DNA from: Clostridiales bacterium Firm_05 | GTDB lineage: Bacteria > Bacillota > Clostridia > Oscillospirales > Ruminococcaceae | Reading direction: 5' to 3' | Assembly (NCBI GenBank): GCA_001604035.1 | Contig: LVAK01000105.1 | Location: 1 to 40,198, forward strand | DNA: 40,198 bases | Shown here: positions 12,932 to 39,363 of the stretch, piece by piece | How positions within the stretch are numbered: the stretch's first letter is position 1 | How the letters are laid out: every line of letters begins with the position of its first letter | Position numbers and translations under genes: made by a program | The notes under the pieces: generated by a model | What the model was told of the DNA's origin: nothing | The model's database searches: none | What the model saw: only the letters and a program-made list of their open reading frames with translations

Positions 12932-14680
12932 TTATATCTCGTTGATCTTTCTCTTTACATATGTTGTATGGAGAACTTCATGTGCCTTATGACTGCCTGG
13001 CTTACCGAAGTATTCTTCGTAAACCTTCTTGATAGCTGGATTTTCATGTGACTGTCTGAGAGGCATTGACTTATCAAGGTTGTAGAGGACCTTAGCTCTC
13101 TCAGCTCTGATATCTACAAAGTTTCTTACGCCCATAGGAACCTGAGGCTGACCACCGCCGTTTACACAGCCGCCGGGACAAGCCATGATCTCAATAAACT
13201 GAGCGTCGCACTTGCCAGCTCTGATATCATCAAGAACCTTACGTGCGTTTGAAAGTCCGCTTGCAACCTTAACCTTAACGTTAAGATCACCAACAGCGTA
13301 CTCTGCTTCCTTGATTCCCTCTGTACCACGTACTTCAGGGAGATCTGTTACTGTCTGACCTGTAAGTGTATTTACGGCTGTTCTGAGAGCAGCTTCCATA
13401 ACACCGCCGGTAGCACCAAAGATTACAGCAGCACCGGTTGAAAGTCCGAGAGGATCATCGAACTTCTCGTCCTCAAGTCCGAGGAAGTTGATACCTGCAC
13501 GCTCGATCATTCTGCCGAGCTCACGAGTTGTGAGTGAGTAATCAACGTCAGGAACACCTGCTGCGCTCTGATTGTCACGGCCGATCTCGAACTTCTTAGC
13601 TGTACAAGGCATGATAGATACCATAACGATATTCTTAGGATCGATGCCCATCTTCTCAGCCCAGTATGTCTTAGCTGTTGCACCGAACATCTGCTGAGGT
13701 GACTTACAGCTTGAAAGGTGATCAAGAAGATCAGGATAGTAGTGCTCACAGAATTTTACCCATCCAGGTGAACATGATGTGATGAGCGGGAGGGTTCCGC
13801 CGTTCTGTACACGCTCGATGAACTCGTTTGCCTCTTCCATGATTGTGAGGTCAGCAGCGAAATCAGTATCAAATACCTTATCAAAGCCAAGTCTTCTGAG
13901 AGCAGCTGCCATTTTACCTTCAACGTTTGTACCGATCGGGAGACCGAATGCCTCGCCAAGGCCGGCACGTACAGCAGGTGCTGTCTGAACAAGAACAGTC
14001 TTCTCAGGATCAGCGATAGCTGCCATAACTTCCTTTGTATAATCCTTTTCTGCAATAGCGCCTACAGGACATACTGCAATACACTGACCGCAGGATACGC
14101 AGCTTGTTTCGCCGAGTCCCATATCAAATGCAGAACCGATATATGTCTTGAAACCTCTCTCGTTTGCACCGATAACACCGATGCCCTGTGTCTTAGAACA
14201 TACTGCTACACAGCGGCGGCAAAGGATACACTTGTTGTTATCACGATACATATGAGCAGCACTGCTGTCGATCTCGTACTCGTTCTTGACACCATCAAAT
14301 ACAGAAGCATCCTCAACACCGTAATCCTTAGCAAGCTTCTGGAGCTCACAGTTACCGCTTCTTACACATGAGAGACACTTTCTGTCGTGTGTAGAAAGAA
14401 TGAGTTCAAGAGTTTTCTTTCTTGAAGAGATTACCTTAGGAGAGTTTGTGAGGATCTCCATATTGTTTGAGCAGGGATATACACATCCTGCAACAAGACG
14501 GAAGCCTCTTCCCTCATTTACCTCAGTAACGCAGATACGGCAAGCACCGATCTCGTTGATCTCTTTCATATAGCAAAGTGTCGGAATTTCAAAGCCAGCC
14601 ATATGAGCAGCCTCAAGAACAGTAGTGCCCTTAGGTACTTCTAATTCAACACCGTTGATTTTAACAGTTATATTTTCCAT
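12932..14680 (-). CDS. hydA: [FeFe] hydrogenase catalytic subunit HydA (trimeric, NADH/ferredoxin type)
   Basis: A 582-residue group A [FeFe] hydrogenase. The order is: 2Fe-2S ferredoxin domain (Cys36, 47, 50, 66), His98-Cys102-Cys105-Cys111 cluster, two 4Fe-4S clusters (Cys151/154/157/161 and 194/197/200/204), then the H-cluster domain. The latter has TSCSPGW (Cys303), MPCTAKKFE (Cys359) and MACPGGCVNGGGQP (Cys501, Cys505). In L1 the second of the two usual adjacent cysteines is Ser. With hydB and hydC upstream it should form the soluble electron-bifurcating HydABC that makes H2 from NADH plus reduced ferredoxin, as known in Ruminococcus albus and Thermotoga. GGAGG precedes the start, 14 bases after hydB. 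Confidence 0.96.
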   Translation of the reverse strand: MENITVKINGVELEVPKGTTVLEAAHMAGFEIPTLCYMKEINEIGACRICVTEVNEGRGFRLVAGCVYPCSNNMEILTNSPKVISSRKKTLELILSTHDRKCLSCVRSGNCELQKLAKDYGVEDASVFDGVKNEYEIDSSAAHMYRDNNKCILCRRCVAVCSKTQGIGVIGANERGFKTYIGSAFDMGLGETSCVSCGQCIAVCPVGAIAEKDYTKEVMAAIADPEKTVLVQTAPAVRAGLGEAFGLPIGTNVEGKMAAALRRLGFDKVFDTDFAADLTIMEEANEFIERVQNGGTLPLITSCSPGWVKFCEHYYPDLLDHLSSCKSPQQMFGATAKTYWAEKMGIDPKNIVMVSIMPCTAKKFEIGRDNQSAAGVPDVDYSLTTRELGRMIERAGINFLGLEDEKFDDPLGLSTGAAVIFGATGGVMEAALRTAVNTLTGQTVTDLPEVRGTEGIKEAEYAVGDLNVKVKVASGLSNARKVLDDIRAGKCDAQFIEIMACPGGCVNGGGQPQVPMGVRNFVDIRAERAKVLYNLDKSMPLRQSHENPAIKKVYEEYFGKPGSHKAHEVLHTTYVKRKINEI

Positions 14681-14694
14681 TACTATTCCTCCGC

Positions 14695-16596
14695 TTACTT
14701 CTTGATGATTGCCTTGAACTTACATGTTGCGATACAAGCGCCGCACTTTACGCACTTGTTTGTATCGATCTCCATTGCAGCAAGCTTCTTGCCGGGAGCA
14801 ATGTAGTCAGTTCTTGATATAGCGGATGCGGGACACTGCTTAGCACACATACCGCAGCCGATACAGCTGTCCTTGATAATCTCGAAGCTGAGGAGATCCT
14901 TACATACACCAGCAGGACACTTCTTATCAACGACGTGAGCAATATACTCATCTCTGAAGCATCTGAGAGTTGAAAGAACAGGGTTAGGAGCAGTCTGGCC
15001 GAGACCGCAGAGTGAATTAGCCTTGATGTGGTAAGCGAGTTCCTCGAGCTTATCGAGATCCTCAAGAGTTCCCTGGCCCTTTGTGATCTTGTCAAGGATC
15101 TCCCACATTCTCTTTGTACCGATACGGCAAGGTGTACATTTACCGCATGACTCGTCAACTGTGAATTCAAGGAAGAACTTAGCGATATCAACCATACAGT
15201 TGTCTTCGTCCATAACGATAAGTCCGCCTGAACCCATCATTGAACCGATGCCGATAAGGTTATCGTAATCGATCGGGATATCGAAGTTTGAAGGATCGAT
15301 ACATCCGCCGGAAGGACCGCCTGTCTGTGCAGCCTTGAACTTCTTTCCGTTAGGAATACCGCCGCCGATCTCCTCGATTACTTCACGGAGTGTTGTACCC
15401 ATAGGTACTTCAACAAGTCCGGTGTTCTTGATCTTACCGCCGAGAGCGAATACCTTAGTACCCTTGGACTTCTCTGTACCCATTGATGCGAACCACTCTG
15501 CACCATTGAGGATGATCTGTGGGATGTTAGCATATGTCTCAACATTGTTGAGGATAGTAGGCTTCTGATAGAGACCTTTCTCTGCAGGGAAAGGAGGCCT
15601 CGGACGAGGTTCACCTCTGTTGCCTTCGATAGATGTCATAAGAGCAGTCTCTTCGCCGCATACGAATGCGCCGGCACCAAGACGAAGGTCGATATCGAAA
15701 CTGAAATCTGTTCCGAAGATATTGTTTCCGAGCATACCAGTCTCACGAGCCTGCTTGATAGCAATGTTAAGACGCTCAACAGCGATAGGATACTCTGCAC
15801 GAACATAAATATAACCCTGAGTTGCACCTATAGCGTAACCAGCGATAGCCATAGCCTCGAGTACTACGTGAGGATCGCCCTCAAGCACTGAACGATCCAT
15901 GAATGCACCCGGATCTCCCTCGTCAGCATTACAGCAAACATACTTCTGATCTGCGTCAGGAACGATGTTTCTTGCGAGCTTCCACTTCATACCAGTTGGG
16001 AATCCGCCGCCTCCACGTCCACGGAGACCAGAATCAAGGATAGTCTGGATAACATCCTCAGGTGTCATCGATGTGAGGACTTTACCGAGAGCCTCATAGC
16101 CGTGACGGCCTATGTATTCGTTGATGTTCTCAGGATTGATAACACCGCAGTTTCTGAGAGCTACACGGTGCTGCTTTTTATAGAATGAGGTATCATCAAG
16201 TGACTTTATCTCATCACCTACAACTGTTTCCTCGTAAAGGAATTCCTTTACAGGATTACCGCCGATGAGGTGCTCATCAACGATGCGTGGTATCTCTTCT
16301 ACCTTAACACGTGAGTAGAATGAGCCCTCCGGGTAAACGATCATGATAGGACCTCTCTCACAGAGACCGAAACATCCTGTCTTTACGATCTGAACCTTAT
16401 CATTAAGTCCTTTTTCTGCGAGTTCCTTCTCGAGCTCCTCTATGATCTTAGGTGAGCCGGAAGATGTACATCCTGTACCTCCACAGACAAGAACGTGTCT
16501 TTCATATTTTGAAGAAGCATTGCCATCTTTAGTTCTGAGAGCAACCTCGCCCTCCATGCTGTCTCTGACAACCTTGAGTTCTTCAAGAGTCTTCAT
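14695..16596 (-). CDS. hydB: Bifurcating hydrogenase subunit HydB (NuoF-like)
   Basis: A 633-residue flavoprotein subunit. An N-terminal thioredoxin-like 2Fe-2S domain has Cys38, 43, 75, 79. The NuoF core has GRGGGGFPTG (193-202) and NADEGDPGAFMDR for FMN and NADH binding. A 4Fe-4S site uses Cys484, 487, 490 and 530. Two C-terminal ferredoxin clusters follow (Cys578/581/584/588 and 615/618/621/625). The extra Cys560 and Cys565 ahead of them match the region where HydB-type subunits have a metal-bound bridge. It oxidises NADH and passes electrons toward HydA and ferredoxin. It lies between hydC and hydA, with GGAGG before the start. Confidence 0.96.
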   Translation of the reverse strand: MKTLEELKVVRDSMEGEVALRTKDGNASSKYERHVLVCGGTGCTSSGSPKIIEELEKELAEKGLNDKVQIVKTGCFGLCERGPIMIVYPEGSFYSRVKVEEIPRIVDEHLIGGNPVKEFLYEETVVGDEIKSLDDTSFYKKQHRVALRNCGVINPENINEYIGRHGYEALGKVLTSMTPEDVIQTILDSGLRGRGGGGFPTGMKWKLARNIVPDADQKYVCCNADEGDPGAFMDRSVLEGDPHVVLEAMAIAGYAIGATQGYIYVRAEYPIAVERLNIAIKQARETGMLGNNIFGTDFSFDIDLRLGAGAFVCGEETALMTSIEGNRGEPRPRPPFPAEKGLYQKPTILNNVETYANIPQIILNGAEWFASMGTEKSKGTKVFALGGKIKNTGLVEVPMGTTLREVIEEIGGGIPNGKKFKAAQTGGPSGGCIDPSNFDIPIDYDNLIGIGSMMGSGGLIVMDEDNCMVDIAKFFLEFTVDESCGKCTPCRIGTKRMWEILDKITKGQGTLEDLDKLEELAYHIKANSLCGLGQTAPNPVLSTLRCFRDEYIAHVVDKKCPAGVCKDLLSFEIIKDSCIGCGMCAKQCPASAISRTDYIAPGKKLAAMEIDTNKCVKCGACIATCKFKAIIKK

Positions 16597-16627
16597 AAGT
16601 TAACCTCCTAAATGGTATTATATGTAA

Positions 16628-17122
16628 TCAGGCGTATTTTGCAATGATCTTGTCAACGTCGTCAACAGTAAGACGGCCGTAAACATCTTCATTAACTGTG
16701 AGAACGGGAGCAAGTCCGCAGGCGCCTATGCAGCGGCAGGCGTCAAGAGAGAACTTGCCATCGGGTGTACACTGTCCTCCGCCGATTCCGAGCTTTTCCT
16801 GAAGCTTATTATAAATATCACCGGAGCCCTTAACGTAGCAGGCTGTACCAAGACAGACTGAGATTGAATATTCGCCCTTCGGATAGAGAGAGAACTGAGC
16901 GTAGAAGGTAACAACGCCGTAGATCTTCTCGAGTGGGATACCAGTTTTGTCGGAAATAATGGTCTGAACTTCGATAGGAAGATAGCCATAGATTTCCTGA
17001 GCCTTCTGAAGGATAGGCATAAGTGCGCCCTTGTCGCTCTTCTTCTCTTCGATAACTTTGAGAAGCTGTGCCTCCTGCTCAGGAGTACCCTTGAAAGGAA
17101 CAGTTGATTTAGCTGAATTCAT
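16628..17122 (-). CDS. hydC: Bifurcating hydrogenase subunit HydC (NuoE-like)
   Basis: A 164-residue NuoE-type subunit with a helical N-terminus and a thioredoxin-fold 2Fe-2S domain. Ligands are Cys90 and Cys95 (CLGTAC) and Cys131 and Cys135 (RCIGACGLAPV). It partners HydB in electron transfer. It is the first gene of hydCBA, with AAGGAGG 9 bases before the ATG, 31 bases ahead of hydB and behind a 374-base regulatory gap. Confidence 0.95.
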   Translation of the reverse strand: MNSAKSTVPFKGTPEQEAQLLKVIEEKKSDKGALMPILQKAQEIYGYLPIEVQTIISDKTGIPLEKIYGVVTFYAQFSLYPKGEYSISVCLGTACYVKGSGDIYNKLQEKLGIGGGQCTPDGKFSLDACRCIGACGLAPVLTVNEDVYGRLTVDDVDKIIAKYA

Positions 17123-37429: not shown

Positions 37430-38881
37430 TTAGAATCTGAAATCACGCTTGCCGCCGTTCTTTATTTCATCAAGATATTCAATGGCACGCTGTCTGCGCT
37501 TTTCATCAGGCACGTTCTGTATCTCACGCTGGATAAGTGCTTCTCCTACCGCACGAGTCTCCGGAGATGCATAATCTGTAAGATATTCCTGAAGCGTCAT
37601 AAGAGCGTTCGGATGACAGCAGTTCTGTATCTGTCCTACCTTACACAGAGCCATGAATCTGTCTCCGGTACGGCCTTCACGGTAGCAAGCGGTACAGAAC
37701 GACGGTATATATCCAAGATCCATAAGCCACTTGACAACTTCATCAAGTGAACGCTGATCTGATACATCAAACTGTTCTGTATCATGGGGTCGTTCGTCGG
37801 GAGTATATCCTGCATATCCGCCGACAGATGTTCTTGAACCGCCGGATATCTGTGAAACGCCAAGGCCAAGCACTTTCTCACGACAGGCTTCGCTTTCTCT
37901 TGTGGAAATAATCATTCCTGTGTATGGAACTGCAATTCTGATACAAGCAACTATTTTTGCAAAAGTATCATCATCTATTCCGTTGTCAAAAACAGACGGA
38001 TCAATATCGCTTGCACGTCTTATACGTGGAACACTGATAGTGTGTGGTCCAACACCATGTACGGCTTCAAGATGCTCAGCATGCATCAATACTCCCGCAA
38101 ACTCATATTTGTACTTATCAAGACCAAAGAGAACTCCAAGCCCAACATCATCTATGCCGCCTTCCATAGCTCTGTCCATAGCCTCTGTGTGATACGCATA
38201 GTTATGCTTAGGTCCTGCCGGATGAAGCTTTTCATAGCTTTCCTTGTGGTATGTTTCCTGGAACAGGATGTATGTTCCGATACCAGCATCATGCAGCTTC
38301 TTGTAATTCTCAACTGTTGTTGCAGCGATATTTACGTTAACTCGTCTTATAGCACCGTTCTTGTGCTTAATAGAATATATTGTATTTATACATTCAAGGA
38401 TATATTCAATAGGATTGTTCACAGGATCTTCTCCTGATTCGATAGCAAGTCTCTTGTGACCAAGATCCTGAAGGGCAATAACTTCGTTTTTGAGCTCTTC
38501 CTGTGTAAGTTTTTTACGTGGGATCTCCTTATTCTGGAAATGATACGGACAGTAAACGCACTTGTTTACGCAATAATTTGAAAGATAAAGAGGTGCGAAC
38601 ATTACTATTCTGTCTCCATAAAACGCCTCTTTGATCTGACGTGCAAGAGCATATATCTTTTCAACTACCTCGGGATCCTCGCAGGCAAGAAGAACGCTTG
38701 CCTCACGGTGAGACAATCCGGCGCACTCAACTCCCCTGCCAGTCTTTTTGGGAGCAGCCTTGTCAAGTATCTGCTCGATAAGCTCACGGTTATTCTTGTT
38801 CTTTTCAGCGTATTCGATCGTGTCGAGTATCTCCTGATCGTCGATAAAATCCTCGGCCTTCATTGATCTTACATCATACAT
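37430..38881 (-). CDS. hydG: [FeFe] hydrogenase H-cluster maturase HydG (radical SAM tyrosine lyase)
   Basis: A 483-residue HydG. The radical-SAM motif CVNKCVYC (Cys104, 108, 111) binds the first 4Fe-4S cluster, and the C-terminal Cys396-x2-Cys399-x22-Cys422 binds the auxiliary cluster. It splits tyrosine to make the CO and cyanide ligands of the H-cluster, which HydA needs. It is encoded 22 kb from hydA. GGAG lies 10 bases before the start and the TM1266-type regulator gene is 16 bases upstream. Partners hydE and hydF are not in the window. Confidence 0.97.
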   Translation of the reverse strand: MYDVRSMKAEDFIDDQEILDTIEYAEKNKNNRELIEQILDKAAPKKTGRGVECAGLSHREASVLLACEDPEVVEKIYALARQIKEAFYGDRIVMFAPLYLSNYCVNKCVYCPYHFQNKEIPRKKLTQEELKNEVIALQDLGHKRLAIESGEDPVNNPIEYILECINTIYSIKHKNGAIRRVNVNIAATTVENYKKLHDAGIGTYILFQETYHKESYEKLHPAGPKHNYAYHTEAMDRAMEGGIDDVGLGVLFGLDKYKYEFAGVLMHAEHLEAVHGVGPHTISVPRIRRASDIDPSVFDNGIDDDTFAKIVACIRIAVPYTGMIISTRESEACREKVLGLGVSQISGGSRTSVGGYAGYTPDERPHDTEQFDVSDQRSLDEVVKWLMDLGYIPSFCTACYREGRTGDRFMALCKVGQIQNCCHPNALMTLQEYLTDYASPETRAVGEALIQREIQNVPDEKRRQRAIEYLDEIKNGGKRDFRF

Positions 38882-38897: not shown

Positions 38898-39146
38898 TCA
38901 CTTTTTAGAAATTGCGGCTTTTACAGAAACGCCGCTGATCTGTCCAAGTCTTCCTGTAAGACTGCTTATTACATCTGGCTCAGCATCAAGCGCCACCGAT
39001 ATCAATGAGATCCCTCGCTCCTTATACGGCAGTCCCATGCGTCCGATAATTATATCACTGTTTTCGTGCAGAACTTTGTTGACTTCCACCGCTGCGTCCG
39101 GCTCGTCTATAACTATCGCCGCAACAGCTATTCTCTTCTCGTCCAT
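38898..39146 (-). CDS. TM1266-family iron-only hydrogenase system regulator
   Basis: An 82-residue ACT/NikR-like protein. Start at 39146 follows AAAGGAGG; the frame extends upstream without a site. MDEKRIAVAAIVIDEPDAA, HENSDIIIGRMGLPYKERG and a C-terminal GQISGVSVKAAISKK strand are typical of the TM1266 family found with hydE/hydF/hydG. It is thought to bind a small ligand and regulate hydrogenase maturation, but the mechanism is unproven. It is co-transcribed with hydG behind a long leader. Confidence 0.88.
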   Translation of the reverse strand: MDEKRIAVAAIVIDEPDAAVEVNKVLHENSDIIIGRMGLPYKERGISLISVALDAEPDVISSLTGRLGQISGVSVKAAISKK

Positions 39147-39164: not shown

Positions 39165-39329
39165 GGTGCAAAAAGCTCCGTCCGCTTTTAAACGGACGGA
39201 GCTTGTATGTATAATAAGTTTACACAAATCTACATTCTATTTGCTGCCATCCGATAACAGAGTTTGCACCCTGATGTCCGAAAACATTTTTTAAAATGCC
39301 AAATGCAGAATAAATCCTGCACTCCGCAT
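39165..39329 (-). ncRNA. Structured leader / attenuator of the hydG operon (unidentified RNA)
   Basis: A transcript starting near 39329 would contain the following. UGCAG/CUGCA hairpin (39303-39321); a hairpin CAGGGU-GCAA-ACUCUG with a GNRA loop (39257-39272); and a perfect 12-bp terminator hairpin, AAGCTCCGTCCG/CGGACGGAGCTT (39173-39204), followed on the minus strand by TTTTTG. GGUGCAAA in the GNRA hairpin is complementary to UUUGCACC across the terminator's U-tract (TTTGCACC at 39263-39270, GGTGCAAA at 39165-39172). GCGGAG at the 5' end can pair with CUCCGU of the terminator arm. This suggests switching between termination and read-through, or a ~160-nt stable RNA. Confidence 0.6.
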
Positions 39330-39334
39330 AAAAA

Positions 39335-39363
39335 ATTATATCTCATTTTCTATCGGATGTCAA
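39335..39363 (-). promoter_or_regulatory. Full-consensus SigA promoter of the hydG-operon leader
   Basis: On the minus strand TTGACA (39363-39358) and TATAAT (39340-39335) are separated by 17 bases. Confidence 0.88.

Follow-up and report, generated by a model that had tools for sequence, protein, structure and literature searches.

A probable transcription-attenuation leader RNA upstream of TM1266 and hydG in a member of the Ruminococcaceae, with similar leaders before H-cluster maturation genes elsewhere in the Clostridia

The BglG/LicT RAT sites are protein-dependent attenuators in which a hairpin competes with a terminator. We know of no riboswitch for hydrogenase cofactor biosynthesis, so that a direct RNA sensor of H-cluster assembly would be the first, and the licensed subset of PMC yielded nothing on how the supply of maturases is adjusted, at the RNA level, to the demand for hydrogenase in anaerobes. 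In Caldicellulosiruptor bescii, Rex also regulates hydG, which there shares a unit with an annotated CopG-family regulator gene (PMC6391272). Unlike the RNA leader described here, Rex is a DNA-binding repressor, and the terms "leader" and "untranslated" are absent from the main text of that paper. We think it likely that an unclassified transcription-attenuation leader controls TM1266-hydG in the genome analyzed here, and that similar leaders across the class control hydE, hydF, hydG, and probably aspA by switching between a conserved hairpin, P2, and an antiterminator.

The window, a 40,198-nucleotide stretch of contig LVAK01000105.1 of Clostridiales bacterium Firm_05, carries the leader and its genes on the minus strand (Table 1). 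The leader spans ~180 nt from the promoter to the TM1266 ATG at position 39146, with hydG as the next gene. A full-consensus promoter, a ~180-base leader, and a perfect 12-bp terminator before TM1266 and hydG had all been claimed in the original prediction, and all were confirmed, with the promoter matching at 12 of 12 positions and the two genes identified as TIGR03959 and HydG. The terminator stem, AAGCUCCGUCCG/CGGACGGAGCUU, extends to 14 bp when one U-G and one U-A pair are counted. The TIGR03959 family is named as a putative regulator, and a relative of the TM1266-family protein has a solved structure (2nzc). The leader folded better than 200 of 200 dinucleotide shuffles when the terminator was included (z = -7.5) and still did so when it was removed (z = -4.6); the full-length window transcript folds into the terminator.

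Table 1. Features of the leader and the genes that follow it, in window coordinates
Feature	Position	Strand	Basis
Promoter, TTGACA-17-TATAAT	39363-39335	minus	12/12 consensus match
Hairpin P1, with conserved GGAUUUAUUC tip	39329-39296	minus	fold; double-sided changes in 9/10 main-stem pairs
Hairpin P2; internal loops (UUUUCGG..../..UUAUCGGAUGGC) conserved	39286-39245	minus	fold; covariation; covariance-model match 39242-39328
Putative switch strand CGGAUGG; candidate partners, basal P2 or terminator 5' arm (antiterminator)	39253-39247	minus	duplex -16.4 kcal/mol; swap test
CCGUCCG, terminator 5' arm, predicted to pair with CGGAUGG	39199-39193	minus	duplex energy; swap test
Intrinsic terminator and U-tract	39204-39170	minus	perfect stem; -24.1 kcal/mol
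TM1266-family gene (TIGR03959), first after the leader	38898-39146	minus	profile 104.8 bits, cut-off 60.8
hydG, H-cluster radical SAM maturase	37430-38881	minus	TIGR03955, 908.6 bits

A blastn search of 125 same-genus genomes returned strong matches, and TM1266 lay downstream on the same strand in all 30 loci that were aligned. The original prediction had proposed looking for conservation ahead of TM1266-hydG in relatives, and a covariance model built from 30 loci (R1; L003 to L032, the window's own included) found it, with one copy of the RNA in each of 95 of the 125 genomes. TM1266 itself was found in 103 genomes, all 95 RNA-positive ones among them, and the RNA was found in none of the 22 TM1266-negative genomes. 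One of the eight TM1266-positive, RNA-negative genomes ends 84 nt before TM1266; when the wider model R2 was run on the other seven without filters, four gave matches at E ≤ 0.02 (one of which, L172, has kept P1 alone), one gave a weak match (0.5), and two gave none. Among 396 genomes of the family, 12 had an R1 match, 6 of them same-genus. TM1266 lay downstream in 97 of 97 loci (95 of the genus and 2 of another genus), either directly or after one gene of ~0.8 kb. A strict pattern searched over the genomes of 84,980 species retrieved 40 stretches, 38 of them titled Ruminococcus; TM1266 followed on the same strand in 36, and the remaining 4 end 2 to 345 nt after the motif. R. flavefaciens is a member of the class Clostridia. 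Three R1 matches (L069, L071, and L072) were dropped as chance hits with no convincing TM1266 nearby. The genome of L072 (G201) has the element elsewhere, before TM1266; of the six matches besides the window in an R2 search of the order's genomes, this is the one that was confirmed.

The promoter and terminator accompany the RNA in these loci. The sequence reaches far enough upstream in 95 of 97 leaders, and 89 of these 95 show a promoter in the same place that matches at ≥10 of 12 positions (12 of 12 in 44 of the 89). A terminator was found in 96 of the 97, that of the window included. In L030 and L101, and imperfectly in L073, the promoter spacer carries an inverted repeat, TTGACA-N6-TGTCAA, around the -35 box; it does not occur in the window and is possibly the operator of a regulator.

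Several of these loci differ in gene content. An alpha/beta hydrolase-like protein of ~275 amino acids is encoded between the leader and TM1266 in L030, L073, L083, L111, and L126 (the L073 protein is Palm_thioest-like, with weak Pfam matches), a position in which the gene would be under the leader's control; we know of no part that such a protein plays in making hydrogenase. In L011, L028, and L098, variable genes separate TM1266 from hydG, encoding a Pyridox_ox_2 protein and, as judged by eye, NUDIX-like and macro-domain-like proteins. Eight genomes (G345, G351, G186, G263, G278, G163, G332, and G129) have a second, weaker TM1266 match, in an open frame of 312 to 461 amino acids. In seven of these genomes it shares a contig with the first match and lies ~2 kb farther downstream; in G129 the two matches are on separate contigs. 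The frames may represent fusions of the TM1266 domain with a larger protein. In the window itself, positions 12932-17122 of the minus strand, 20 kb from hydG, encode a group A6 [FeFe] hydrogenase that is NADH-dependent (NF040763) and has subunits recognized by eye as NuoF- and NuoE-like. Since the window's genome has a single R1 match, this hydrogenase operon has no leader.

The expectation that the leader is structured was borne out by the covariation of P1 and P2 in relatives. In alignment A4 (n = 94), 93.2% of cells pair and double-sided changes occur in 22 of 25 pairs. A4 had been fitted to the structure of the model, and its figure is to be read beside that of an unfitted MAFFT alignment of 30, in which such changes occur in 8 of the 25 pairs. 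Double-change cells in A4 numbered 304, versus 80.6 ± 8.2 after shuffling, and the covariation score was 0.493, versus 0.064 to 0.149 for slid partners. A4 excludes 3 of the 97 sources that are split or truncated (L117, L125, and L129) and four spurious extra matches. The leader thus presents, as riboswitches do, a conserved and covarying 5' domain upstream of the genes of one pathway.

The pairings originally proposed fared less well than the leader itself. The window does contain the complementarity of GGUGCAAA and UUUGCACC and the GCAA-capped hairpin, but neither is conserved, a GNRA loop being found there in 22 of the 94 aligned sequences, and in the two nearest relatives GGUGAAAA stands against UUUUGCGCC in place of the GGUGCAAA/UUUGCACC pairing. 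In addition, UUUGCACC lies 3' of the terminator stem and therefore exists only after the polymerase has read through. We rejected this GNRA-capped switch because the P2 loop varies across relatives. The second proposed pairing, of GCGGAG in P1 with the terminator arm, showed no coupling in a swap test (P = 0.43), although both sequences are conserved and complementary.

A different pairing is coupled across the leaders. CGGAUGG, on the 3' side of hairpin 2, would act as a conserved switch, being complementary both to its partner within P2 and to the 5' arm of the terminator (CCGUCCG); in L011, L023, and L025, the partner sequences differ on each side. When the 22-nt switch region was paired with its own arm or with the arms of other clusters in 53 cluster representatives of 109 leaders, it preferred its own arm (P = 0.00005). 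The 5' strand of P2 gave P = 0.02, and its pairing with the arm is a possible alternative in some subgroups. Against shuffled versions of their own arms, the switch region scored -11.10 versus -7.94 and P1 scored -11.80 versus -10.04. Given that P1 beats the shuffled arms because both it and the arm are conserved and complementary, the shuffled-arm test by itself cannot decide; some of the complementarity follows from conservation alone, which leaves the swap test to discriminate. Pairing between switch strand and arm is weak in some members of the genus (L119, -2.9 kcal/mol; L100, -4.0 kcal/mol; L115, -4.2 kcal/mol).

Folding energies are consistent with a choice between two structures. In transcripts cut at the terminator loop, the P2 and antiterminator folds are near iso-energetic (median difference, 0.2 kcal/mol; interquartile range, -1.7 to 3.4; n = 109). 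The window transcript cut at this point has a free fold that contains the antiterminator and keeps the P2 apex (-43.0, versus -40.7 without the antiterminator pairs), and once the 3' arm of the terminator is present, the terminator fold wins. Judged by sequence and energy, antiterminator and terminator would thus form a mutually exclusive platform of the kind found in riboswitches.

Leaders of a similar plan occur in other genera of the family. Divergent copies recognized by R1 or R2 lie upstream of TM1266, in the right place and on the right strand, in g85, g89, g77, g78, and g6, with weaker ones in g119 and g82. In 69 of 103 other-genus TM1266 loci of the family, the start codon has a terminator ~190 nt or less upstream of it, and many of these loci share an element, CUGAC-NNC-GAA...UGAG-NNG-AAAG, before the terminator. 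After 12 of the 69 leaders had been set aside as window-type, the remaining 57 gave -16.53 with their own arms, versus -14.01 ± 0.33 with swapped arms (0 of 20,000 swaps as low); a far-upstream control for the same leaders was itself about 2 standard deviations low (-10.50 versus -9.75 ± 0.34), so composition explains part of the own-arm fit in this set. A hand-drawn structure for 34 of the elements gave 65 double-change cells, versus 31.2 ± 4.5, and a score of 0.457, versus 0.236 ± 0.024. The same structure and elements showed no excess in the number of pairs with double changes (7 versus 7.2) or of pair types (25 versus 24.2).

A model of the CUGAC..GAAAG element, which resembles hairpin 2 but is simpler, was built from 34 other-genus elements (R3); RNAalifold proposed no structure for its alignment. 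Outside the family and the training set, R3 matched upstream of TM1266 at E < 0.05 in two sets of class-level loci (24 of 60 and 14 of 30), always on the coding strand; 33 of these 38 elements are followed by a terminator no more than 130 nt away. In the 33 leaders, the 3' strand of the element paired with its own arm at -12.98, versus -10.40 ± 0.43 for swapped arms (0 of 20,000 swaps). Of 291 genomes of the class, 47 contained R3 matches at E ≤ 0.05, 48 matches in all. The surroundings of 43 of the matches comprised TM1266 (20), hydE (5), hydG (5), hydF (1), aspA (1), an SsuC-like ABC permease (1), and unrelated places (10, among them L395 and L405, all discounted); by coordinates, the other five lie upstream of TM1266 (four) or just after it (one). 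At the stricter cut-off of E ≤ 0.01, 32 matches are left, 30 of which adjoin a maturation gene. A terminator follows within 130 nt in 27 of the 33 related cases (hydE, 5/5; hydF, 1/1; aspA; permease; TM1266, 17/20; hydG, 2/5). Two of the hydG-linked matches (L404 and L406) end 2 to 3 nt before the ATG with no terminator found, and these may be chance matches or translational elements.

The leaders before the aspartate ammonia-lyase gene (aspA; L414) and the SsuC-like ABC transporter permease gene (L410) both have the element followed by a terminator. aspA is reported as a neighbor and an ammonium supplier in H-cluster maturation (PMC11736057); the permease would be an unexplained member of the regulon. 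Hints of tandem CUGAC..AAAG copies upstream of TM1266, seen as weak second matches or by eye in L319, L290, L307, L294, and L310, recall tandem riboswitches. In L303 (303-345, minus strand; E = 0.0003) and L288 (400-441, minus strand; E = 0.13), a second, weaker match lies right before hydG, downstream of the TM1266 gene of the same cluster, with little space for a terminator.

R3 did not match the window form in L003, L011, L073, or L095 at E ≤ 1, nor anything in the window's genome. Placing the window form and the class-wide form in one family rests on their position, their common hairpin-antiterminator-terminator plan, and two bridging loci that both models match with weak E-values (L180, R2 0.014 and R3 0.0019; L175, R2 0.033 and R3 0.013).

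Given the swap tests and the folding energies, we infer a switch that would act during transcription. As P1 and P2 leave the polymerase, the 3' strand of P2 would have two possible partners, its own complement at the base of P2 and the coming 5' arm of the terminator. A signal that held the base of P2 together would leave the arm free, so that the terminator would form and transcription would stop; with no such signal, the antiterminator would form and the operon would be read. The direction suggested here follows from the energies, since the cut transcripts are near iso-energetic and the terminator wins once its 3' arm exists, such that a signal steadying the P2 base would cause termination. 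The simpler idea that a constitutive terminator merely lowers expression, or marks the 3' end of a small RNA, fits the strong stem (-24.1 kcal/mol) into which the full transcript folds, but in three leader sets the switch strand fits its own arm better than swapped ones, and the same genes follow the leader, and we regard this idea as improbable. Control of translation, by pairing of CUGCC repeats between the terminator and the Shine-Dalgarno sequence with GGCAG of P2, strikes us as more improbable still. GACUGCC or a similar sequence, complementary to GGCAGUU, does stand right after the U-tract in many of the 30 aligned leaders, and the P2 apex is weakly coupled to the post-terminator region (own, -8.31; permuted, -7.77 ± 0.22; 43 of 5,000 as low). 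However, other aligned leaders lack such a sequence, and this coupling is weaker than that to the terminator. HydG uses tyrosine, for which reason we also considered attenuation by ribosome stalling on a leader peptide. A 16-codon ATG frame crosses P2 in the window, as seen by eye, but no conserved short ORF emerged among 96 leaders, ATG frames of ≥8 codons occurred in 22 of the 96, fewer than the 46.1 ± 5.1 obtained by mononucleotide shuffling, and the length differences between conserved blocks are not divisible by three, all of which makes a leader peptide very improbable.

If P2 is the sensor of an attenuator, its signal could be a small molecule or a protein. We favor the reading in which the conserved P2 loops would bind a small molecule, so that H-cluster assembly would be under feedback from one of its products or precursors. 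The same attenuator might instead be governed by a protein that binds P2, such as TM1266 in autoregulation or another RNA-binding protein, a possibility that we hold to be real if on the unlikely side. The occurrence of TM1266 downstream in 97 of 97 loci and its family's name speak for it, as do the two related strands and GA-rich internal loops of the class-wide P2, features that protein binding sites on RNA often have. The class-wide element also precedes hydE and hydF, which speaks against a protein of this kind. Within the genus, the element is restricted to TM1266 carriers (0 of 22 negatives); the class-level exception is a single match before hydG in G838 (L396), a 97% complete genome with no TM1266 match, which counts against TM1266 as an obligatory sensor but is a weak counterexample because no terminator was found there.

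Returning to a small-molecule signal, its most specific form, in which a Clostridia-wide RNA class senses H-cluster assembly directly, with the P2 core binding a pathway intermediate or precursor and setting maturase supply by attenuation, seems doubtful to us and is offered tentatively. The targets hydE, hydF, hydG, and aspA would point to candidate ligands such as an iron-cyanide-carbonyl synthon or an amine or ammonium source, and the ligand would then possibly be organometallic. A conserved RNA before hydE, hydF, hydG, and TM1266 offers a concrete starting point for experiments, connects the so far unexplained TM1266 gene with regulation of the pathway, and could serve as a tunable part for hydrogenase engineering.

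The original prediction recognized no known class in the leader, and the Rfam 15 covariance-model search agrees: no family reached its gathering threshold in the window, the loci of 10 relatives gave tRNAs only, and 12 further loci gave no matches. The leader did not belong to any riboswitch or T-box class in Rfam, either at gathering thresholds in the window and relatives or at E-values of up to 10 in the window region and up to 1 in seven relatives. Sub-threshold matches (small RNA genes, the pyrG leader, a snoRNA, and others) were rejected. The best of these in the window, RF02634 (EF3314_EF3315; 27.2 bits) and RF02452 (ncr1575; 31.5 bits), are alike in having a hairpin followed by a terminator, but they are small RNA genes of Enterococcus and Bacillus with gathering scores, 100 and 60, far above those of the window. 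The likeness to the PyrG leader (RF02371; 20.5 bits versus a gathering score of 65) is confined to the terminator hairpin, the rest of the window leader being without a match. No published description of the leader RNA was found in the licensed PMC subset, with the 2017 survey of candidate RNAs covered through its Rfam entries.

Among the systems compared, a BglG/LicT RAT site overlaps the terminator itself, whereas the conserved hairpins of the window leader stand upstream of it. Although the window leader has no known ligand and no Rfam 15 family, it is like the riboswitches with terminator expression platforms in its conserved 5' domain, in the strand common to that domain and to a predicted antiterminator that overlaps the terminator, and in its association with the genes of one pathway.
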